Of a stretch of 64,000 bases of DNA, positions 33,164-43,265 are shown one piece after another. The notes beneath the pieces were generated by a model. That model saw only the letters and a program-made list of their open reading frames with translations, searched no databases and was not told where the DNA came from. A program made the position numbers and the translations under genes. Source of the DNA: Streptomyces sp. NBC_00683 (GTDB taxonomy: Bacteria; Actinomycetota; Actinomycetes; Streptomycetales; Streptomycetaceae); NCBI RefSeq assembly GCF_036226745.1, contig NZ_CP109013.1, forward strand, positions 3,906,001-3,970,000, written 5' to 3'. Numbering within the stretch: position 1 is the stretch's first letter; each line of letters begins with the position of its first letter.

Positions 33164-33208
33164 GCCGTATCCGCCGTATCCGCCGTATCCGCCGTATCCG
33201 CCGTATCC
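33164..33208. repeat. 9-bp tandem repeat, five copies
   Basis: Five exact, head-to-tail copies of GCCGTATCC occupy 33164-33208 just past the stop of the candidate immunity gene and before a terminator and the left island boundary. The perfect copies suggest recent slippage. Confidence 0.95.
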
Positions 33209-33220
33209 GCCGGAACGAGG

Positions 33221-33256
33221 AAAGCCCAGCTCAGAGCACATCTGAGCTGGGCTTTT
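33221..33256. terminator. Bidirectional terminator at the left island junction
   Basis: A perfect 15-bp stem (33221-33235, 33241-33255) with a 5-nt loop and flanking AAA/TTTT. It sits directly beside the displaced tRNA-Thr 3' end, so it was probably the original terminator of tRNA-Thr before the island inserted; it can also stop transcription from the TNT unit. Confidence 0.9.
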
Positions 33257-33303
33257 CGTTGAGCCCCCTGTCGGATTCGAACCGACGACCTACGCATTAC
33301 AAG
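33254..33303. repeat. Left attachment site (50-bp direct repeat, tRNA-Thr 3' fragment)
   Basis: These 50 bp are identical to 43183-43232 and contain the tRNA-Thr sequence from the anticodon loop to the 3' end plus a few flanking bases. The identity ends at 33304 (G against T). Read on the minus strand it is only the 3' half of a tRNA, so it is the displaced end left by integration (attL). Confidence 0.95.
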
Positions 33304-33480
33304 GGCCTGCAGCTTCGTGACAAACACTGCCGGCACATGCCGTTCGGTACCGTTTGCGCAGGTCAAAGGCGGGCGGCGCCCTCAACCACATCACGGGGTG
33401 CCGCCTGATGCCGTACGGTCCGCTCACGCAACACCGGCTCATCGGGTCTTGCAGCCAGGATGTCGGGCGGCGCGGCGGCG

Positions 33481-33705
33481 TCAGCGGATGAAGAACCGCG
33501 CCGCGATGATCTGGATCGCGATGGCACCGCCGGCATAGGCGGCACCCTTCAGCATCTGGACCGCGAGCGCCCAGCGGAGGAAACGCAGCCGACGCAGGAT
33601 CCTGCGCCACGAGCGCCCGACGGCACCACCGCTGGAACCGTCCTGGCGCATCCAGGCAGCCTTGATCTTCCTGGCAACCCTGGCCAGGTAGGCCGTACAA
33701 TTCAT
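33481..33705 (-). CDS. Small membrane protein of the island, unknown function
   Basis: A 74-residue basic protein, MNCTAYLARVARKIKAAWMR at the start, with an Arg-rich middle (RSWRRILRRLRFLRW) and one C-terminal hydrophobic segment (ALAVQMLKGAAYAGGAIAIQ). I do not recognise it. AAGGAG at nine bases before ATG 33705 is a strong ribosome site and supports it being a real gene. It lies just inside the left island boundary, transcribed toward the att site. Confidence 0.6.
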   Translation of the reverse strand: MNCTAYLARVARKIKAAWMRQDGSSGGAVGRSWRRILRRLRFLRWALAVQMLKGAAYAGGAIAIQIIAARFFIR

Positions 33706-33925
33706 CAGTGGGAACTCCTTCTCGTATTCGATTCGAAGTAGGGCGTTTCCTGCAGGGGAGGTTGGACGCGGTTGGCAAGCCTTCTGTCCAGCCTCTCCTG
33801 CTCTACCCGTGCGGCGGCGCACGGCAGTCGGCACCGAATGGCCGACTACAACAGCCCGACAATTCAGCAGTCACAGAGTAGCCTCTCCGGCAGCCGAGAA
33901 ATTCACCAGTGCAGCTTATGCAATC

Positions 33926-34582
33926 CTAGTCACGCCCAAGGGCAGCAAGCGCGATCTTCACGGTATCCCGGCCCGCAGATTCTGCCGACCGTAGAAGTAC
34001 TTCCATTTCAGGATTCATCCGATTCTGCCCCAGTGCCGACACCAGGGAGCCGCACTCACCCTCATGCAGAGTCGCCCCGAGGTCCCACAAAAGAGCGGAT
34101 CGAGCCGCCAATGGAAGCGCGGCAAGAAAGACCGGAGTGCAGTATTCCGCCTCATCGGCGTTCGTGCTGTTGCGCCGGTCCCCGTCGGCAGCCTGCCCGC
34201 CGAAACCGTTGCGCCGGTCCCCCTCCGCAGCCTCGCCACCGCAGGCGCACGCGCCCACGCGGCGGCAGCAAGGGGCCTTCCGTGCCGCCAGCAAGAGCCG
34301 CTCTGCGCGCGCGAAATCCTCACCCAGGCGGACCGTTCCGGCGATCTGCGCAGGCTGCGCCAGCCGCCTCAAGGCCGCGAGGACTCCCGGCCGGGGCAGC
34401 CTCCTCCCGTGCAGCCAGTGCGAAAGCAAGGAAGAGGAGACACCGAGAGCCCGCGCCTTCTCGGCCATGGTCACCCCCGGGAGGGCCTGGGGCAGCACCT
34501 CCTGGAAGGCGAGCGCGAAAGCCTTCACTTCCTCCGTAGCCTCGCCCACGCAGGAGCGTTTGATCGATCCGAGTGACGGCAT
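33926..34582 (-). CDS. XRE-like helix-turn-helix regulator of the island
   Basis: A 218-residue protein. MAEKARALGVSSSLLSHWLH with the following GRRLPRPGVLAAL is an XRE-type helix-turn-helix (residues about 40-75). A middle region carries a 13-residue repeat, GGEAAEGDRRN then GGQAADGDRRN, encoded by a 39-bp DNA duplication. The C-terminal helical part (FLAALPLAARSALLWDLGAT, then EVLLRSAESAGRDTVKIALA) is of unknown type. Divergent to the nuclease operon beginning at 34,884, it probably controls that operon and itself. ATG 34582 is used. Confidence 0.75.
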   Translation of the reverse strand: MPSLGSIKRSCVGEATEEVKAFALAFQEVLPQALPGVTMAEKARALGVSSSLLSHWLHGRRLPRPGVLAALRRLAQPAQIAGTVRLGEDFARAERLLLAARKAPCCRRVGACACGGEAAEGDRRNGFGGQAADGDRRNSTNADEAEYCTPVFLAALPLAARSALLWDLGATLHEGECGSLVSALGQNRMNPEMEVLLRSAESAGRDTVKIALAALGRD

Positions 34583-34883
34583 GCAAAGGAGCCTCTCGCT
34601 CGCCGGAGATCGGCAGGGTTGCGTGATCATCGGAAGCCTAGCCCTTCCTTGCGACATCGGGGAGCGGTCCGGCGTTATTACGCAGATGTATTTATGGCAG
34701 CGGACATAATGAATCCATAAATGCTCACTTAGGGGACGAAACGGATCTTTACTTCAATGAGAAGCGTAAAGATCCAGGAACTACTGGAGTAAGCGATACA
34801 GCCTGTGCTAATAATGAGCAAGAATCGCGGCCCGAGATGCACCCTCAGGACTGCACCGAAACACTGCATGAAACGGAGGCGCT
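34583..34883. promoter_or_regulatory. A/T-rich divergent promoter region with inverted repeat 34743-34775
   Basis: About 300 bp without a gene between the XRE gene and the nuclease operon. GGATCTTTAC (34743-34752) and GTAAAGATCC (34766-34775) form a perfect 10-bp inverted repeat with a 13-nt spacer, either an operator or an mRNA hairpin. A possible -10 is CATAAT (34705-34710) without a clear -35. The marked A/T content differs from the neighbouring chromosome. Confidence 0.5.
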
Positions 34884-35564
34884 GTGACGCCATCGTGGCG
34901 CGATGACAGCCTCGGAACGATGAAGCGAGTCGCCCTCTGGCTCGTGTCGGAGGTCGGCGAGGGGCAGCCCTTCACCAAGGAGGCACTGCGCGACGCGTTC
35001 CCCGGGGTGTCCCAGGTGGATCGACGCATGCGCGATCTCCGCGACTTCAGGTGGCAAATCGATACAAACAGGGAGGATGCAGGCCTCGACTCCCACGAGC
35101 AGCGTTTCGTGAAGCGCGGCGACCCCGTCTGGGAACCCGGCCGCGCTACCCGGAAGACCGGCACGACAGCCATCGGCGCAGGACGCCGGCGTGAGGTCCT
35201 CCAGCAGGACGGCAACATGTGCCGTTCCTGCGGGATCGTTCCCGGCGAGACTTACGCCGGCACATACGAAGCGGCCCAGCTGGACATCGCGCGGCGGGAG
35301 GTTCTGAAGCCTGACGGGTCCAAGGCCACCGAGCTGATCACGGAGTGCAAGCGGTGCCGGATCGGCGGCAGGGAACTGGTCGCGGACCTGGGTCAAGCCC
35401 TCAAGGAAGCCGCCGGACTCAGCTCCATCGAGCGCAAGGTACTGTCCGGCTGGATGGAAGCCGATGAGCGCCAGTTCAGCCGACTGGAGCAGCTCTGGAG
35501 CGACTACCGGTCCCTGCCCGAGGAATCGCGCGCCCACCTCCGCAGAGCGCTCGGCCTCGACTGA
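34884..35564 (+). CDS. Degenerate HNH-like zinc protein, first gene of the island operon
   Basis: A 226-residue protein. The N-terminus (MKRVALWLVSEVGEGQPFTK, then FPGVSQVDRRMRDLRDF) looks like a winged-helix segment. The middle RREVLQQDGNMCRSCG and later ITECKRCRIGGREL keep the two CxxC pairs of an HNH/treble-clef fold. However, the expected DH catalytic pair reads AR (LDIARREV) and the Asn after the second CxxC is Arg. It is therefore more likely a DNA-binding or structural relative than an active nuclease. GTG 34884 has GGAGG just upstream. The ParB-like gene follows. Confidence 0.7.
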   Translation: MTPSWRDDSLGTMKRVALWLVSEVGEGQPFTKEALRDAFPGVSQVDRRMRDLRDFRWQIDTNREDAGLDSHEQRFVKRGDPVWEPGRATRKTGTTAIGAGRRREVLQQDGNMCRSCGIVPGETYAGTYEAAQLDIARREVLKPDGSKATELITECKRCRIGGRELVADLGQALKEAAGLSSIERKVLSGWMEADERQFSRLEQLWSDYRSLPEESRAHLRRALGLD

Positions 35565-35629
35565 GCATCCGGCAGGTGCGGAGGGCATTCGAAGCAGGAC
35601 GAGCAGAGGCAGGAGCGAGGACAGCGGAC

Positions 35630-37051
35630 ATGGCTATGGATTACGGGCTGCCGCCCAGGGCTGAGGAGAACCGGGCCACCGTTCAGGCCCGGCTGGCGGA
35701 GAGCGCGGCCGGCGGCGGCACCCGCGAGACGTTCACCGTCGAGTGGCGGGGCAAGCCCGAGCACCTCGAAGTGATCGAGATGGAGGTCGGCGACCTCTAC
35801 TACAACCCGGCGACCCACCGGATTCGCGCGCAGGTAGATCATGACCTCGACAAGTCCGCGATCCTCGAAACGGACCCGTGGAGCACCGACGGTCAGCGAT
35901 ACCTGGGCCGTCTACTGCAGGTGGTCCCCGCCGATCCGGCGAGAACCGACCCCGCGTTCGACGAGCTCACCGCGAGCTTGAAGGAGTTCGGGCAGACCGA
36001 GCCAGGCTTGATCACCCACGAGGGCATCCTCGTCAACGGCAACACACGACGCGCCGCGCTCCTGGAACTTCACGGGCCGAACCACCCCGTGCGCGTGGCT
36101 GTGCTGCCCGCTTCCTGCGACTGGAAAGACGTCGCTGCCGTTGAGCTCTCGCTGCAATTGCGCAGGGAGCACCGGCGGGATTACTCATACATCAACCGGC
36201 TTCTCGCCGTGGAGGAACTGGTCGACCAGGGCACCCCGCTCGCGGCGATCGCTACCACCTTCCGCTCCACGGCTGCGCGGGTCCGGCAGGACCAGTGGGT
36301 GCTGTCCGTCATCCGCCAGTTGATCAAGCGCAGTGAGATCTCCGGGGAGCGGCTGTCGCTGGTCGCGTTCGAGGAGCATGCGGAGAAGTTCCGCGAGCTG
36401 CATCGCGCCTACGAGAAGCAGTACAGCGTCAACCCCGAGCGGGCCGATCTGCTCGTAGAGAACCGCCTGGCCGCCATGCTCATGGGCTTCGCCAAGACGG
36501 ACGTGCGCTTTATCGATGACAAATTCCGTGACGCGTACCTGTCGGAGAAGCTGCCAGACGGCATGGCCCCCGAACCTGCTCCGTCACGAGGGGGTGTAGC
36601 AATCCCGGGCCTGGGGCGTGCCGTCCAAGGCCCCAGCCCTGCCGTCTCGGCGGCTAGAGCCCTGACAGACGCCGTCCTCCAGGCTCGGGCGGTCACCCAA
36701 GCCGGTAGCTCCGCCCCGACGGAGGCAGTGACTGCAGCGCAAGACGAGGTAAAGCGCATGCACAAGGCGATGGACGAAGCCATCACCGACGCCGGCCGCG
36801 CCGCCCGCATCACCAAGCGCAAGCAAGCTGCTCCCGCTCGTCTCGCAGACGCGAACCGCAGCATCGAGCAGTGCGTCACGGACCTCGTCCTCTCCCGCTC
36901 GCAGCGAAGCCTCGATGAGGAAGCCTTCGACGATGCCATCGTCGAACTGCGGAAGAGGCTGGAGAAGCTCGCGGTCGAAGCCCGACGGACTGTCGGTGAG
37001 CCTGGCGACGGCCTGTCGTGGCTCCTCGAAGCCACGGGAAAGGCACGTTGA
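35630..37051 (+). CDS. ParB/Srx-fold protein of the defence operon
   Basis: A 473-residue protein. Residues about 45-190 resemble the ParB N-terminal (ParB/Srx) domain: EVGDLYYNPATHRIR, then LTASLKEFGQTEPGLITHEG and ILVNGNTRRAALLELHGPN, where GNTRR takes the place of the GxxRR nucleotide-binding motif. A helical middle (YSYINRLLAVEELVDQGTPL) could be the KorB/ParB HTH. The C-terminal half is coiled-coil-like (TAAQDEVKRMHKAMDEAITD). ATG 35630 is chosen for its purine-rich upstream; GTG 35576 is possible. Its stop abuts the helicase GTG, so the two are probably made together. Confidence 0.72.
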   Translation: MAMDYGLPPRAEENRATVQARLAESAAGGGTRETFTVEWRGKPEHLEVIEMEVGDLYYNPATHRIRAQVDHDLDKSAILETDPWSTDGQRYLGRLLQVVPADPARTDPAFDELTASLKEFGQTEPGLITHEGILVNGNTRRAALLELHGPNHPVRVAVLPASCDWKDVAAVELSLQLRREHRRDYSYINRLLAVEELVDQGTPLAAIATTFRSTAARVRQDQWVLSVIRQLIKRSEISGERLSLVAFEEHAEKFRELHRAYEKQYSVNPERADLLVENRLAAMLMGFAKTDVRFIDDKFRDAYLSEKLPDGMAPEPAPSRGGVAIPGLGRAVQGPSPAVSAARALTDAVLQARAVTQAGSSAPTEAVTAAQDEVKRMHKAMDEAITDAGRAARITKRKQAAPARLADANRSIEQCVTDLVLSRSQRSLDEEAFDDAIVELRKRLEKLAVEARRTVGEPGDGLSWLLEATGKAR

Positions 37052-38872
37052 GTGGTTGACCAGCCCAGTCTGGTGATCGGCTTCGACACCACGCGCACCC
37101 AAGCGGCGCTCAGAACCGTGCCCGAATGCCGCGGCGAGTTGGGGCAGATGATCGCCAGCTTCCCCAGTGGCCGGATGACCGACCGCCTATCCGCCGCTGT
37201 CCCTATAGACAGCTTCCTGGCCAGTCTCGGCTCCCTAGCGGCATGGCCGCAGCCCGAGAGCGTGGTCTGGGAGGACGACTTCCGCCTCCTCGTCAGCGAG
37301 ATGCTCGACACCGCGGAGACGGCGGATCGGCTGCTGAACGGCACGCCGGGCGAGGAGAATGTTGCCCCGGAAGGGGTGCCAGCCCTGCTGGGCGATGCCT
37401 GGACGGGGCCTCTCACCCCGTTTCAGCTCCGGGACATCGCCCGGCTGCTCTCGGTCGGCCACGGGGCCAACTTCAGCGTGCCAGGCGCCGGCAAGACCCG
37501 CGTCTCCCTGGCCGTGTTCTCGGCCCTGCGGGAGCAGGGAGCGGTCAACCGCATCCTGGTAGTCAGCCCGAAGTCGGCCTACGAGGCGTGGCAACTGGAG
37601 GCGCGGGAGTGCTTCTCCTCGCCTCTGGACGTACAGGTACTCGGCAAGACGGTGCCTCCGGCAGCAGACATCCTCCTTCTCAACTACGAGCGGCTGGACA
37701 GGGCGCTCGCCGGCCTGTCGCAGTGGCTGAAGGCGGCCCCGACCATGCTCATCCTTGACGAGGCGCACCGCATGAAGCTCGGCGGCGCGGGTGTCTACGG
37801 CGCGGCCTGCATGGCGCTGGGCCCGCTCAGCCGCGTGCGCATGATCCTTAGCGGCACCCCGGCGCCGAACGGGGCGAAGGATCTGGAGAACCTGCTCTCC
37901 TTCGTCTGGCCTGGCCACGGGCGACGCGTGGTCACCCAGGCGGTAGACGGTGGCGACCTAGCCCATGCAAGCCAGGTACTGCGTCCCCTCTACACCCGGA
38001 CGACGAAGGCAGAGCTGGGGCTTCCGCCTGTCGACTTGCGCGTCCGCCCGCTCAGCATGCCTCCCCTGCACCGTGAGATCTACGACGCCTTGATCGGCAA
38101 GTTCTCTCCGCGCGCAGCTGCCGACCGGGGCGATTTCGAGGCATTCGGCAAGGCAGTCCTGCGTCTGCTCATGGCCGCGACCAGTCCAGCGCTCCTCGTC
38201 GGCGGCTCGACCCGCTACGAGCCGCTGAACTTCCGTGTCCCGCCCTTGGATATCCCGGAGGGGGACTCGCTTGCGGCCCTCCTCCGCAAGCTCCCCGATT
38301 ACGAGCTACCGCCCAAGTACACGGAGACGCTGTCCATCGTCTCCGCCAATGCCGCGGCCGGCCGGAAGACTCTGGTGTGGACGGGCTTCGTCCGGAGCAT
38401 CACGTCATTGCAAGCGCTGCTCGCACCGTTCCAGCCCGCCGCGGTGCACGGGGGGACTCCCGACCGGGAGGAGGAGCTGCGCCGCTTCCGCGAGGATCCG
38501 GATTGCAGCGTCCTCATCTCCAATCCGGCGACCCTGGGCGAGGGCATCAGCCTCCACCAGGTCTGCCATGACGCCGTGTACGTCGACCGCGACTTCCAGG
38601 CAGGCCGGTTCCTCCAAAGCCTGGACCGCATCCATCGCCTTGGCCTCGCCCCGGACACGGAGACGCGGGTCACCGTCCTCACTGCGATGGGAAGTGTCGA
38701 TGATGTCGTCTCCATGCGGCTCGCTGAGAAGCTGGAGTTCATGGGCAGCATCCTCGACGACCCCGAGGTGCAGCAGCTCGCTGACCCGGAGGACGAGGCC
38801 CCGATGGCCGCAGGGATGAACTCAGCCGACGTCCAGGCGCTGCTGGAGCATCTCAGGGGGCGCCCGGCGTAG
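37052..38872 (+). CDS. SNF2/SF2-type helicase-like ATPase of the defence operon
   Basis: A 606-residue ATPase. After about 125 residues of unknown type come SF2 motifs: FQLRDIARLLSVGHGANFSV and PGAGKTRVSLAVF (Q-motif and Walker A), LLNYERLD, ILDEAHRMK (Walker B, DEAH), ILSGTPAPNG (motif III), KTLVWTGFVRSITSLQALL (motif IV), ISNPATLGEGISLHQ (motif V) and QSLDRIHRLG (motif VI). The order is that of SNF2-like DNA translocases. GTG 37052 directly follows the ParB-like stop. An ATP-dependent motor beside a type II restriction enzyme that needs no ATP suggests a separate or accessory activity. Confidence 0.88.
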   Translation: MVDQPSLVIGFDTTRTQAALRTVPECRGELGQMIASFPSGRMTDRLSAAVPIDSFLASLGSLAAWPQPESVVWEDDFRLLVSEMLDTAETADRLLNGTPGEENVAPEGVPALLGDAWTGPLTPFQLRDIARLLSVGHGANFSVPGAGKTRVSLAVFSALREQGAVNRILVVSPKSAYEAWQLEARECFSSPLDVQVLGKTVPPAADILLLNYERLDRALAGLSQWLKAAPTMLILDEAHRMKLGGAGVYGAACMALGPLSRVRMILSGTPAPNGAKDLENLLSFVWPGHGRRVVTQAVDGGDLAHASQVLRPLYTRTTKAELGLPPVDLRVRPLSMPPLHREIYDALIGKFSPRAAADRGDFEAFGKAVLRLLMAATSPALLVGGSTRYEPLNFRVPPLDIPEGDSLAALLRKLPDYELPPKYTETLSIVSANAAAGRKTLVWTGFVRSITSLQALLAPFQPAAVHGGTPDREEELRRFREDPDCSVLISNPATLGEGISLHQVCHDAVYVDRDFQAGRFLQSLDRIHRLGLAPDTETRVTVLTAMGSVDDVVSMRLAEKLEFMGSILDDPEVQQLADPEDEAPMAAGMNSADVQALLEHLRGRPA

Positions 38873-38899
38873 CGGGCACCACAAGCGCTCCGGTGCCCG

Positions 38900-39088
38900 T
38901 CAAAGCGTGCCCTCACCGAGAAGCCGCTCGATGGCGTCCGCTTCCCGCTGCAGCACGATGCGCCCGTCTCCGTCGCTGAAAGCGAGAAGGCGGCTGCCTG
39001 CATCGAGCCCTGCCTCCGCTAGGAGGCCGAGAGGGCGTAAGACCTGCCCGTCATCGCCGACCAAGGGTTCTGCTGGTTCGCGTATCAC
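38900..39088 (-). CDS. AbrB/MazE-like small DNA-binding protein
   Basis: A 62-residue protein, GTG start at 39088 (IREPAEPLVGDDGQVLRPLG). The sequence GDDGQVLRPLGLLAEAGLDA followed by GSRLLAFSDGDGRIVLQREA has the swapped-hairpin AbrB/SpoVT pattern seen in antitoxins and regulators, ending in a short helix (IERLLGEGTL). It is antisense to the gap between the helicase and NaeI-like genes, so it could control expression of the nuclease. No toxin partner is adjacent. Confidence 0.6.
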   Translation of the reverse strand: MIREPAEPLVGDDGQVLRPLGLLAEAGLDAGSRLLAFSDGDGRIVLQREADAIERLLGEGTL

Positions 39089-39158
39089 GCCCAGCAGTCT
39101 GCCGGCACCGTCCCGCAACCGACTGCCCCAGCACACCCTCTGCCGATAGGGTCCCGCT

Positions 39159-40112
39159 GTGGACGGCGAAACGATCAGCGTGCAGGCACCCCTGTGGCCA
39201 GTTGGTGAGAGCGACGACCCGGCCTTGGAGGCGGTGGCCGAGGAGATTCTTCGCGCGGACCCGGACGGCAGCCGGTTCGCTGGCGCGGTCCGCCGCAGCA
39301 TCGACATGCTGCTGGACGGCCAGCACACCGGGCGCTTCCGCTGGGACCAGCTCTTCAAGACCGAGAAGGCCCACCTGGGGACCCTGATCGAGATCAATGT
39401 GCAGCGCGAGTTCGGCTTTGCGGACGGCACCAGCATGGACTACTCGATCGCCGGGTCGGACGTCGACTGCAAGTACTCCCAGACCCTCGGCCAGTGGATG
39501 ATCCCGCCCGAAGCCCACGGGCACCTGCTGCTCGTCGTCTGGGCCAGCGACGAGCAGTCCCAGTGGTCGGTGGGACTCGTCCGGGCATTGCCCGAGCGGC
39601 TCAACAACGGCGGCAACCGCGACGCGAAGAAGACACTGAACGTGGCCGGCCGGGGCGCAGTGCGATGGCTGTTCCGCGACGCGCCCCTCCAGGAGAACAT
39701 GCTGCTGCGCCTCTCCCCGGCGGACATCATCGCTATCTTCTCCCACAAGCGCGGCCAGCGCCGCGTGGACGAGCTGTTCCTCCGGGCGCAAGGGCGCAGG
39801 GTCAGCCGCAACGTCGTTGCTACGGTGGCTATGCAGGAGGACTACATGAAGCGCGTCCGCTACAACGGTGGATCGCGCTCCAGGCTCCAGCCCCGCGGCG
39901 TAGTGATCTTGGGTCACTACACCCGCCATGGGCGCATCGCCGAAGTCCTAGGGCTGCCAGTTCCGGGCCCGGGCGAATCTGTCAGCGCCCGCCTGTCCCT
40001 TGCGGGGGCCCACCACGTAGGGGTACCGACAGTGGAGCTTGACGGACAGGAATGGGCCCTGGCCAGGGCCGATGACCCCGAAGAAGCAGTACCGAGACTG
40101 CCGGAAATATGA
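39159..40112 (+). CDS. NaeI-like type IIE restriction endonuclease
   Basis: A 317-residue protein, the same length as NaeI and very similar to my memory of it along its whole length. The catalytic domain has QLFKTEKAHLGTLIEINVQR and DYSIAGSDVDCKYSQTLGQW, which keep the Glu, Asp and D-x-K residues of the NaeI active site. The C-terminal CAP-like DNA-binding domain begins near residue 170 (RVDELFLRAQGRRVSRNVVA, MKRVRYNGGSRSRLQPRGVV). Like NaeI it has Leu before KTEK, so it should cleave rather than act as a topoisomerase. The predicted site is GCCGGC with a second effector site. Its stop overlaps vsr by four bases. Confidence 0.92.
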   Translation: MDGETISVQAPLWPVGESDDPALEAVAEEILRADPDGSRFAGAVRRSIDMLLDGQHTGRFRWDQLFKTEKAHLGTLIEINVQREFGFADGTSMDYSIAGSDVDCKYSQTLGQWMIPPEAHGHLLLVVWASDEQSQWSVGLVRALPERLNNGGNRDAKKTLNVAGRGAVRWLFRDAPLQENMLLRLSPADIIAIFSHKRGQRRVDELFLRAQGRRVSRNVVATVAMQEDYMKRVRYNGGSRSRLQPRGVVILGHYTRHGRIAEVLGLPVPGPGESVSARLSLAGAHHVGVPTVELDGQEWALARADDPEEAVPRLPEI

Positions 40113-40621
40113 ACGGACACAGCAAGCGCTACACAGTGCCGGAGCCGGAACCCCAGACAGGACCGTGGGTCCCGCCCAACGGCTCGTGGGCCTCGTCAGC
40201 CGCGAACCGACGCAGCATGCTGGGCAACCGGAGCCGCGACACAGCTCCGGAACTGCTGCTGCGGTCACTCGTCCACGCAGCGGGGCTGCGCTACCGGGTA
40301 GCGGCCAAGCCCCTGCCGAAGATGCGGCGCACAGCTGACATGGTCTTCCGCCCCGTAAAGGTGGCTGTGTTCATCGATGGATGTTTTTGGCACGGCTGCC
40401 CCGACCACTTCGTCATGCCGAAGACCAACCGTCCGTACTGGGAAGACAAGATCGGGCGGAACGTCCAGCGCGACCGGGATACCGACCAGCGCCTCGCCGA
40501 CGAGGGCTGGCTAGTGCTGCGCTTCTGGGAGCACCTCGACCCCGAGGCATGCGCCGACACCGTTATCGACGCGGTGAAGTCTCGGCGGCAGGCGGTAGCG
40601 GGGTCGCGGCGGCCCCATTAG
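40109..40621 (+). CDS. vsr: Very short patch repair endonuclease Vsr
   Basis: A 170-residue strand-specific nickase for T:G mismatches that arise when 5-methylcytosine deaminates. RSRDTAPELLLRSLVHAAGL, RRTADMVFRPVKVAVFIDGC and FWHGCPDHF carry the catalytic Asp and the zinc ligands, and LVLRFWEHLDPEACADTVID is the usual C-terminal block. The start overlaps the NaeI-like stop (ATGA), so the nuclease and the repair enzyme are translated together. Its presence implies that the neighbouring methyltransferase makes C5-methylcytosine. Confidence 0.93.
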   Translation: MNGHSKRYTVPEPEPQTGPWVPPNGSWASSAANRRSMLGNRSRDTAPELLLRSLVHAAGLRYRVAAKPLPKMRRTADMVFRPVKVAVFIDGCFWHGCPDHFVMPKTNRPYWEDKIGRNVQRDRDTDQRLADEGWLVLRFWEHLDPEACADTVIDAVKSRRQAVAGSRRPH

Positions 40622-40666
40622 GCCCCGCGAACACCGCGCCCCGCCTTCGGACACGCCGTCAGCGGG

Positions 40667-41962
40667 TCAGCTGATCTTCGCCTGGTTCAGCGAGAACAGC
40701 TCGTGTCGCTGATGCCCCTCCTGGCCGACGAACGCCTTGAACTCGCCGAGGCTGTACGCGTACGTGCCGCCGGAACGCTGCTCCCTCCGGATCTCGAAGT
40801 CCCTTTCGAGATGCGCGATGTGCCGCTCGACCTCAGGCTCAGACAGTCGCTTGCCCGCCTTCTCCAAGCGGCCGATGATCTGGGTGATACCGATGAACCT
40901 CTGCTTCTCGGCCTCCGCGCGAAGCAGTTTGTACACAGGATCATGCACCGTCTCGGTGTCCTCGACCAACGCCGCCGGAGCACCCTTTTTGTTCAGCGCG
41001 TCGGCGATAGACCGGCCGATGGCCTCGGCCACAGGCGGAGGGAAAGCGTTGCCGACCTGCCGGTATCGGCTGGTCTTCTTCCCTTCGAAGACCCACTTGT
41101 CCTCGGGCTTCCATCCTTGGATGCGGGAGACCATCTCCACCGTGAGCTTCGGGCCGGGCTTCCCCTCGGCAGGCTCCCAGTCCTCGCCTGGTGCTTCGTC
41201 CGCCACACCATGAGCATCGACCCCGAGCTTTGCCCAGGCAGCCTTGGCACGGGTCGGCCCCAGGTCCGCCCCTCCGTGCTTTTTAGAACCACCGACGATG
41301 GTCGGCGCAATGTCGTTAGCGCCCTCGGCCCATTCCTTAGCACCCTTCCAGCCACCGGCAGCCATGAGGTCGTAGAGCGTCTCACCGACCGTCCGACGCT
41401 CGCCCTCCAGAGGCTTCGGCCAGGCAAAATAGGGCGCGTACTCGCGCTGGAGCGCCACAAGGACAAACCTCGGGCGCAGCTGCGGTACACCGAAGTCCGC
41501 AGCGTGGAAGAGCTCCCACTGCGCTACGTAACCAGCGTCTTGCAGCGTGTCCAAAACGTTCTGCCGGTAGGCGGCGAACCGGTTCGCACTGAGCCCTCGC
41601 ACGTTCTCCAGGAGAAGAGCCTTGGGCCTTACCCGCGCGGCCAGCCCGACCGCCCAAGCGAACAGGTCTCGTTCGTCAGCGGCGCCAAGCTGTTTGCCCG
41701 CAATAGTGAAGGGCGGGCAGGGGACACCACCGGCGATCAAGTCCGGGGTGCCGTGCTCAGCACAGAACTGCTCCGGGTCCCAAATCGACCGGTCAGCCAC
41801 GTCTCCAGTGCGTACATCGCAGCCCGGCATGTTCCTTTTCAGGGTTTCCGCAGCCCTTGGGTCGAGCTCCACGGCAACAGCGTGCTCGAATCCGGCGCGC
41901 TCCAACCCCAGAGCCTGCCCGCCAGCACCTGCGCAGATCTCGGCAACCTGAAGCTTGGCCAT
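40667..41962 (-). CDS. DNA (cytosine-5-)-methyltransferase, cognate of the NaeI-like enzyme
   Basis: A 431-residue C5 methyltransferase. Motif I is VAEICAGAGGQALGLERAGF, motif IV GGVPCPPFTIAGKQLGAADE with the catalytic Cys, motif VI LLLENVRGLSANRF, motif VIII FGVPQLRPRFVLVALQ and motif X RYRQVGNAFPPPVAEAIG. A C-terminal extension of about 100 residues (about 325-431, ending GEFKAFVGQEGHQRHELFSL) looks winged-helix-like. ATG 41962 is preceded by GGAGG; the open frame runs further upstream without support. It is convergent with vsr. Protection of GCCGGC is inferred from the paired NaeI-like nuclease. Confidence 0.92.
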   Translation of the reverse strand: MAKLQVAEICAGAGGQALGLERAGFEHAVAVELDPRAAETLKRNMPGCDVRTGDVADRSIWDPEQFCAEHGTPDLIAGGVPCPPFTIAGKQLGAADERDLFAWAVGLAARVRPKALLLENVRGLSANRFAAYRQNVLDTLQDAGYVAQWELFHAADFGVPQLRPRFVLVALQREYAPYFAWPKPLEGERRTVGETLYDLMAAGGWKGAKEWAEGANDIAPTIVGGSKKHGGADLGPTRAKAAWAKLGVDAHGVADEAPGEDWEPAEGKPGPKLTVEMVSRIQGWKPEDKWVFEGKKTSRYRQVGNAFPPPVAEAIGRSIADALNKKGAPAALVEDTETVHDPVYKLLRAEAEKQRFIGITQIIGRLEKAGKRLSEPEVERHIAHLERDFEIRREQRSGGTYAYSLGEFKAFVGQEGHQRHELFSLNQAKIS

Positions 41963-42315
41963 TCGTCCTCCATACGTGCGCACCGCCCGCCGCGCGCTCG
42001 GCTGCACTCGCGACGGACCAGACTCGAACACGTTAGCGAGTCCGTCTCCGCTCACGAACATCCCAGCAAGATCGCAACAAGTCCACTGGGTCGGGGCAGG
42101 AACAGCTGAGCTGACCGCGAACGCGGTCAGCGGAGTGGCCTATATTAGTTCGCCGACATCAGCCCTTGCCGTTGTCCACAGGACCTGCTTGGCAAAAAGG
42201 GACGAGTGTCTCACCACCAAGCGCCTGGAATGCGCCGCCCGAGCCTTTGCAAGGGAGGGTGCACCGATCCATCTGGTCGTGTCTGCGCAGGACCGCACCT
42301 GGGCAGATACCGAGC
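41963..42315 (-). promoter_or_regulatory. Methyltransferase upstream region with palindrome 42111-42130
   Basis: No gene is seen in these 350 bp. CTGACCGCG-AA-CGCGGTCAG (42111-42130) is a near-continuous 20-bp palindrome. On the minus strand a -10-like TAATAT (42147-42142) lies about 12 bp upstream of it, which would put the palindrome just downstream of a start point, a position suited to autorepression of a methyltransferase gene. A -35 is not evident. Confidence 0.4.
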
Positions 42316-42540
42316 GTGAACGGAACTTTGCCGGCGTGGGCCTGGAACGTGGCCGAGGCTGAGCTGAGAGGGCCGCTTCCTCGTTGGTGGCTGCACTCTC
42401 TAGGAGTCTCGCAGCGCGCGACCGAATTGGCTGAGCCGGTGGGAGGGGATACGGAGCTCTTGGTCTCTGCAGCCGTCTTACACGACGTCAGCTACGCGCC
42501 GCGGCTGACCGTCAATGGATTTCCCCACTGGACGGCGCTC
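42316..42540 (+). pseudogene. HD-domain protein fragment, frameshifted and truncated
   Basis: Beginning near GTG 42316 the frame reads AWNVAEAELRGPLPRWWLHS, LGVSQRATELAE, then LVSAAVLHDVSYAPRLTVNG, a typical HD-domain phosphohydrolase start with the HD pair. In intact relatives the next residues are FHPLDGAR. Here PLDGARF appears in another frame starting near 42,528, because five bases stand where six are expected, a 1-bp loss. The coding then runs into integrase sequence, so the C-terminal half of the HD protein is missing. Confidence 0.7.
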
Positions 42541-42560
42541 GCTTCGACAGCGGCTACCGT

Positions 42561-43061
42561 GTGGTCGCACTCGACGACGACACCATCGACGTCCTGAAGC
42601 GCTACCGCGAACGGCAGGACCAAGACCGCGAGAAGTGGGGCACGGCCTGGGCCGAGACCGGCCACGTCTTCACCCAGGAAGACGGCTCCTGGCTCCACTC
42701 GGGCAAAGTCGCCGACCTCTTCGAGCGCCTCGTCGCCGCGTCCGGCCTCCCGCCGATCCGACTGCACGATCTGCGCCACGGCGCGGCGACGCTCATGCTC
42801 GCCGTCGGCATCGACATCAAGATCGCGTCGGACACACTCGGCCACAGCGGCACCCGGATCACACGGGGCATCTCCCAGAGCGTCCTGCCCCACGTCAGCA
42901 GGAGCGCCGCCGAGGCCATCGCGAAGCTCACCCCCCTCCAGCGCAAGGCCGAAGCCGAGAAGGCTGCGGCCAAGAACGCCGACAGGGCTAAGGGCGGCAA
43001 GCCGAGTAACGAGGCGAAAGCCCGGGCCGAGGAGGCCACGCACCGGAAGCCCAAGAAGTAG
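42561..43061 (+). pseudogene. Tyrosine integrase remnant with Tyr-to-Ser at the nucleophile
   Basis: Only the C-terminal catalytic half survives (166 codons): ALDDDTIDVLKRYRERQDQD, VFTQEDGSWLHSGKVADLF, and LHDLRHGAATLMLAVGIDIK with the second catalytic Arg and His, then TLGHSGTRITRGISQSVLPH. In relatives I remember, this last segment reads as RDIYQSVLP or RDTYTSVLP; here Tyr is Ser (TCC). The core-binding domain and first catalytic Arg region are gone; upstream in frame lies HD-protein sequence. It adjoins attR, the normal place for the element's integrase. Confidence 0.88.
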
Positions 43062-43148
43062 GGGTCCCTGAGCGGCTCCGCTCACGCCCCGCTCACGCAG
43101 GCCCTCCCACCGCGCCCCGACCATCCGGCATACCAACCCCGGAACAGT

Positions 43149-43185
43149 AAAAAACCCAGGTCACGGGCTATGTGACCTGGGGTTT
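43149..43185 (-). terminator. Terminator downstream of tRNA-Thr, supplied by the island
   Basis: AAACCCAGGTCAC (43152-43164) pairs with 43172-43185 with one bulged G, and on the minus strand is followed by a run of six T. It lies 6 bp past the tRNA 3' end and inside the island, so it replaces the original terminator now at 33,221. Confidence 0.9.
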
Positions 43186-43232
43186 CGTTGAGCCCCCTGT
43201 CGGATTCGAACCGACGACCTACGCATTACAAG
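43183..43232. repeat. Right attachment site (50-bp direct repeat within tRNA-Thr)
   Basis: Identical to 33254-33303. It covers tRNA-Thr from the anticodon loop to the 3' end plus eight downstream bases. The intact tRNA at this end means the element carries the substitute 3' end (attR). Confidence 0.95.
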
Positions 43233-43265
43233 TGCGTTGCTCTGGCCGGACTGAGCTAAGGAGGC
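43191..43265 (-). tRNA. tRNA-Thr (anticodon UGU)
   Basis: A 75-nt cloverleaf: acceptor GCCTCCT pairs with AGGGGGC (with one G:U), D-arm AGCTCAGTCCGGCCAGAGC, anticodon stem ACGCA/TGCGT around loop CTTGTAA (anticodon TGT, at 43228-43230), and T-arm GTCGG-TTCGAAT-CCGAC. CCA is not encoded. Reads ACA and, by wobble, ACG codons. Confidence 0.95.

Follow-up and report, generated by a model that had tools for sequence, protein, structure and literature searches.

Two types of ParB–SNF2 operon, found in two bacterial phyla, each appear to begin with a restriction enzyme whose catalytic residues are gone, the two putatively dead enzymes being of different fold. The first type lies in a 64,000-nucleotide stretch (the window) of the 8.52-Mb chromosome of Streptomyces sp. 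NBC_00683 (contig NZ_CP109013.1, positions 3,906,001 to 3,970,000; coordinates below are those of the window), within a mobile island at 33254..43232. Three genes follow one another there on the forward strand, encoding a zinc protein with a broken HNH site (ZnH, 34884..35564), a ParB-like protein (35630..37051) and a SNF2-type ATPase (37052..38872), together called the trio. They are followed by genes for a NaeI-family type II restriction endonuclease (39159..40112, +), a Vsr-family endonuclease (40109..40621, +) and a C5-cytosine DNA methyltransferase (MTase; 40667..42061, −). A first-pass annotation of the window had described these six genes and interpreted the trio as a separate or accessory anti-phage module travelling with 5-methylcytosine (5mC) restriction systems; profile matches and structure models agree with the genes, their strands and their approximate positions. 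The trio has proved to be conserved and its 5mC company has stood, whereas its independence has not. Rather, we consider it somewhat probable that the trio forms the centre of a restriction-type defence module linked to 5mC, with a dead enzyme as reader, a ParB clamp, a SNF2 motor and swappable nucleases.

ZnH comprises a winged-helix-like N-terminus and an HNH-like part in which two CxxC pairs (CxxC..CxxC) are intact and the H and N of the HNH site are replaced by R137 and R159. The break, noted already in the first-pass annotation, is family-wide: the H/N pair is kept in 0/64 trio copies from an even sample of the genus (His at 137 in 0/64), and in a second set of 80 loci His occurs at 137 in 0/80 rows and at 159 in one row (both sets are defined below). 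ZnH lacks the catalytic His and Asn/His of an HNH endonuclease, and the absence of these residues across the family rules out an active HNH nuclease. Live HNH homologues of ZnH are located beside MTases, and ZnH itself is a homologue of HNH restriction enzymes, predicted to be catalytically dead. Profile scans gave no family match for ZnH, and a sequence search against solved structures and a Foldseek search were uninformative.

The second operon type has the order X–ParB-like–SNF2–NOV_C and was found at three distant Streptomyces loci (L129–L131) and at four alphaproteobacterial plasmid loci (L214–L217), in one of which (L214) an insertion sequence precedes NOV_C. All seven have matches to a 5mC MTase and to Vsr, either within the stretch or, in Kozakia, on the same plasmid. 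The X proteins scanned had no Pfam family match. The X protein of the Rhizobium locus L217 is recognized by a PADLOC model for type II restriction enzymes (2.8e-19), as is the locus's own enzyme beside its MTase (2e-137), and these two proteins share 29% identity (E 9e-23). Eight homologues of X located beside MTases, including the L217 enzyme, keep D-Y...(E/D)-L-K in 8/8, in an alignment that took 8 of the 16 non-X plasmid records and left out a split Kozakia copy and seven others. Judged from the motif, these would be the catalytic residues of a PD-(D/E)XK enzyme. In the X proteins (7/7), V or I stands at the Asp and I at the Glu/Asp, while the Lys is kept, which suggests that X is a dead restriction enzyme of the PD-(D/E)XK type, a fold unrelated to the HNH of ZnH. 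It is the catalytic loss in X taken together with that in ZnH that leads us to propose a dead restriction enzyme at the start of both operon types.

Three further observations concern these and related plasmid loci. In the Kozakia plasmid (L223:2093-2951), the annotation splits the live-type restriction enzyme in two, and the X, ParB, SNF2 and DUF3883 genes look whole. In L217 (4786-6621), an OLD/GajA-like ABC-type ATPase lies between the type II restriction-modification (RM) pair and the X–ParB–SNF2–NOV_C operon. A Streptomyces albidoflavus plasmid (L213:8995-13134) carries consecutive genes for a ParB-like protein, SNF2 and NOV_C, and neither ZnH nor the MTase nor Vsr is matched within 19 kb, the genome not having been searched for these; it is a possible third version, reader-less or differently read.

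The model of the ParB-like protein (predicted local distance difference test score, pLDDT, 87.6) shows an N-terminal ParB fold and a helix-turn-helix (HTH), as expected of a ParB CTPase fold, and a long helical C-terminal region; its top structure matches are ParB, Noc, KorB and PadC. Within the family, the Box II motif GxxR is retained (G in 63/65, R in 65/65) and a Box III-like residue, E172, is conserved. On this model, the protein is assigned to the ParB CTPase fold, and nucleotide binding and clamp closing are predicted. No Pfam, NCBIfam or PADLOC model matches it convincingly; against the sequences of solved structures, a match to SSB1 (0.0013) fell in the helical C-terminal region and was taken as chance, and comparing its profile with that of the host ParB gave nothing informative. 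The SNF2 protein (PF00176, 1.9e-15) has an intact Walker A (GAGKT), DEAH and motif VI and is predicted to be an active ATPase. A ParB clamp feeding a motor, as the first-pass annotation had suggested, is structurally plausible on this modelled fold and these motifs. KorB acts by spreading (PMC12704722), and the ParB/Noc/KorB clamps share with the ParB-like protein the fold, the HTH and Box II/III-like motifs. They differ in having ParA as partner, whereas here the partners would be a dead restriction enzyme and a SNF2 ATPase, and in the long helical C-terminal region.

Conservation was followed in two sets of loci, both picked by the ParB-like protein and sharing some strains. A family alignment search of genome_contigs returned 182 related loci, the best 80 of which form the contig set, which consequently leans toward window-like loci. 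For a sample not picked by likeness, 392 genomes of the genus were drawn evenly, and 64 loci were read from 63 genomes other than that of the window; 57 of these loci, with at least 6 kb upstream and at least 8 kb downstream, are called well-flanked, seven with short flanks being left out. Genes were tallied by tblastn, as a codon-bias gene finder overlooked genes in several loci. A mirror test used four genes and 53/64 loci, Vsr distances being dropped. ZnH and SNF2 genes flank the ParB-like gene in 64/64 sample loci and stand beside it in 80/80 contigs (best 80 of 182). Because loci picked by the ParB-like protein alone still hold ZnH and SNF2, the grouping is far above chance. The ParB-like family is narrow and rare outside the genus: a full member occurs in 64/392 genomes of the genus (that of the window included) and a distant one in three more, and a draw across the phylum gave 3/396 genomes, all of the window's genus. 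Outside it, the contig set reaches Amycolatopsis, Kribbella, Nocardia and others. Carriage by viruses was rejected, viral_contigs giving no relative and phages a single match of 38% coverage and 24% identity.

The trio is also bound to a 5mC MTase and Vsr. The MTase is present in 57/57 well-flanked sample loci (at a distance of 8.9 kb in L145) and Vsr in 56/57, and in the contig set (best 80 of 182) each is found in 74/80 stretches. Six contig-set loci lack the MTase and Vsr (L008, L009, L017, L019, L041 and L047), two of them (L019 and L047) being cut by contig ends. A genome-wide search covering the other four and the split sample loci L145 and L146 found an MTase–Vsr pair in 6/6; the coordinates of the pair in the genome of L008 place it in a second locus, L074, that is complete, and the pairs of L145 and L146 share a contig with the trio. 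This bond, upheld in the six exception genomes, rules out the trio as independent island cargo and runs against the separate module first proposed. Recurrence with and without NaeI, Vsr and the MTase, suggested at the same time as a check, came out in part: the trio recurs widely and NaeI is optional, but the trio is seldom found without the MTase and Vsr.

The nuclease accompanying this core varies. Among the 57 well-flanked loci, 18 have a NaeI-like enzyme, 16 NOV_C (DUF3883), 4 a live HNH enzyme and 24 none of the three, overlaps being counted in each class; NOV_C was assigned by homology, with PF13020 matching two scanned proteins (E 2.7e-9 and 4.3e-9). NaeI is a type IIE, ATP-independent enzyme, and the earlier view that it does not need the trio agrees with its distribution: of the 64/392 genomes of the genus that hold NaeI, 22 are trio genomes, where it does not always adjoin the trio, and 42 are without the full trio family. 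Together with the presence of a NaeI-like enzyme in just 18/57 trio loci, these 42/64 genomes contradict a rule by which the trio belongs to NaeI systems. NaeI is enriched in trio genomes (22/64 versus 42/328, p 8e-5), but there is no dependence; it is an optional guest. Of the 24 loci without any of the three nucleases, 22 are reduced to the strict minimum, in which ZnH, ParB, SNF2, MTase and Vsr are separated by core gaps of <300 bp. At one hotspot, 15 cassette-free genomes were compared: the flanking genes adjoin in 11, another conserved gene adjoins in three and no neighbour is in view in one. Related genomes hold at this hotspot minimal, NaeI-bearing or NOV_C-bearing cassettes. Thus, the cassette is transferred as a whole, and its nucleases are gained and lost. 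Other candidates for a plug-in nuclease stand near the 5mC MTase in two sister loci, namely DUF4928 with HNH (L129:15342-17163) and GIY-YIG (L130:15812-16657). A DUF262-like open reading frame (ORF), recognized by eye, lies directly beside the NOV_C end of another trio locus (L237:4152-6164).

Gene content, its conservation, the loss of catalytic residues, homology to live restriction enzymes, the ParB fold, the motor motifs and the insertion of whole cassettes are observed; site reading, clamp loading, the direction of action and defence itself belong to a proposed mechanism. ZnH would keep its ancestor's sequence recognition, shared with the cognate MTase, and would bind the MTase's site when unmethylated, as on incoming DNA. 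There it would load the ParB-like protein, a putative nucleoside triphosphate (NTP)-gated clamp, together with the SNF2 ATPase, which could move or pack clamps along the DNA or pull the DNA. NaeI, the NOV_C/DUF3883 PD-(D/E)XK-type protein and the live HNH enzyme would serve as swappable plug-in nucleases, and loci encoding no nuclease might block without cutting or might use Vsr or a host nuclease. In a bolder form, which we hold only tentatively and find more doubtful than the module itself, this would be a separate system for distinguishing self from non-self, built on a dead type II enzyme that was taken up on two or more occasions, from nuclease folds unrelated to each other; this enzyme would recognize its sites when they lack methylation and would load a SNF2-driven ParB clamp. 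Reduced to its minimum (divergent regulator, dead enzyme, ParB, SNF2, 5mC MTase and Vsr), the system would restrict invading DNA by clamp loading and blockage, with no dedicated nuclease.

The trio could instead be merely a helper that finds sites or moves on DNA to activate NaeI, NOV_C, HNH or Vsr and is inert alone. This is unlikely, although it deserves some weight: wherever sample loci have NOV_C, it lies directly 3' of SNF2 on the same strand (17/17), Vsr does so in 5/64, the enrichment of NaeI points the same way, and two-part ATP-dependent systems are known in CglI and NgoAVII (PMC4267653, PMC5737866). The 24/57 loci that hold none of the three nuclease types argue against it; among them are the 22 tight ones, where a conserved flanking gene closes the far end within 460 bp in 15, unscanned DNA lying beyond the other 7. 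Host-side upkeep or repair of 5mC, with ParB and SNF2 aiding Vsr patch repair or methylation, or with the dead enzyme shielding sites from the live one, is more improbable still. Such a role would suit the presence of Vsr in nearly every locus and in 67/67 genomes with a ParB-like match (a by-eye reading of a long list), as well as the DNA damage response that a Vsr-like protein triggers in Caulobacter without the MTase ScmA (PMC12907096). However, 179 sample genomes (246 − 67) hold Vsr without the trio, so that repair does not need the trio, in 24 loci no live enzyme is recognised, which leaves shielding without an obvious object, and patchy spread, plasmid carriage and insertion at a tRNA or hotspot fit defence better. 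Least credible is DNA silencing or positioning, in which ParB spreading and SNF2 would remodel methylated or unmethylated regions and regulate genes, for while Noc and KorB, which act by spreading, are among the nearest folds and many loci have no recognised nuclease, the operons are found again and again with type II nucleases and Vsr, and in two phyla, which speaks against it.

Should the trio indeed be the core of a 5mC-linked restriction-type module, the loss of a restriction enzyme's cutting site would be a recruited function and not decay, turning the enzyme into a site reader for an NTP-driven machine. Restriction-modification would be linked with ParB clamps and SNF2 remodelling, ParB-type switches would be extended to immunity, and a partner would be found for some of the 5mC MTase–Vsr pairs that have no known nuclease. 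The cassette is small enough for a direct test.

As for known systems, CglI and NgoAVII have an MTase that we take to be of the 5mC type. In these RM systems the helicase-like ATPase is a subunit of its own; compared by description only, they have one ATPase and an R protein, and the available parts of these descriptions contain no ParB or dead enzyme (PMC4267653, PMC5737866). Fusion of SNF2 with DUF3883 has been described in RM operons (PMC3710099). In MORC/paraMORC RM operons, a SWI2/SNF2 helicase, HNH or other nucleases, a cytosine MTase and Vsr occur together, and a looping engine with a helicase was proposed (Iyer 2008, PMC2292703). The trio locus resembles these in bringing SNF2, nucleases, cytosine MTase and Vsr into one neighbourhood; their engine is a GHKL ATPase, whereas that of the trio would be a ParB CTPase-fold protein with a dead restriction enzyme (PMC2292703). 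No GHKL (MORC-type) ATPase was found among the eight island proteins scanned. At another locus (L236:3216-5198, −), a GHKL ATPase (HATPase_c_3, 9.3e-15) adjoins NOV_C–SNF2–ParB, so that the trio class and the MORC-type RM class touch; this stretch has no Vsr match, the genome not having been searched for Vsr. The window also contains a NaeI type II RM pair, that is, a NaeI-family endonuclease with a neighbouring C5 MTase, which with Vsr reproduces a NaeI RM system and covers that part but not the trio, most trio loci lacking NaeI and most NaeI genomes lacking the trio.

Likewise, BREX with BrxHII, DISARM with DrmD and Zorya with ZorD place a SNF2-type ATPase beside DNA modification or a nuclease, as here, but the trio SNF2 has only generic helicase similarity to these proteins and falls far under the NCBIfam cut-offs of DrmD (35.6 bits versus 610) and the ZorD equivalog (14.6 versus 1500; PADLOC ZorD, 50 bits). 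Among the eight island proteins there is no ZorAB match, and the BREX core (PglZ, BrxC) is lacking, the sole BREX-type PADLOC match being a BrxH similarity of 29 bits. The MTase is recognized by the DruM2 model (641 bits) but by MTase_II as well (577 bits), with no other Druantia model in the eight proteins. By these PADLOC and NCBIfam scores, the trio does not belong to BREX, DISARM, Druantia or Zorya. Assignment to an already named system, foreseen at first as the outcome that would undo the proposal, did not occur, since no named-system model claims ZnH or the ParB-like protein. No description joining ParB, SNF2 and a dead restriction enzyme was found in the literature searched, which excluded subscription papers, most preprints and REBASE, and the arrangement appears to distinguish self from foreign DNA in a manner not described before.

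The limits first given for the island are exact: 33254..33303 (attL) and 43183..43232 (attR) form a perfect 50-bp direct repeat, attL being a copy of the 3' part of tRNA-Thr at the left end and attR overlapping the tRNA-Thr gene (43190-43265, −), whose 3' part it covers. Between them stand a divergent HTH regulator (33926..34657, −; HTH_31, 27.9 bits versus a cut-off of 27), then ZnH as proposed reader, the ParB-like protein as proposed clamp and SNF2 as proposed motor, the optional nuclease NaeI (PF09126, E 2.8e-114), the near-constant companions Vsr (PF03852; TIGR00632, 126.2 bits, cut-off 97.85) and, on the opposite strand, the MTase (PF00145, 1.2e-57), and finally a C-terminal fragment of a tyrosine integrase (42561..43061, +; PF00589, 1.6e-10). 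The parB-like and SNF2 genes abut, and NaeI and Vsr overlap by 4 bases. Directly outside attL stand a tandem repeat of 9 bases and a hairpin resembling a terminator (33180-33260), and a different hairpin lies directly outside attR (43150-43185). A divergent ORF is found upstream in nearly all loci, other divergent genes taking the place of the HTH regulator in related loci; of two scanned members of the commonest upstream cluster, one weakly matched HTH_31 and the other had no family match. Additionally, at 2-4 kb upstream of ZnH, often just beyond the cassette, an HTH/DUF5753 regulator, a HATPase_c_2 protein and a small protein of ~70 amino acids recur (L037, L062, L080 and many more loci).

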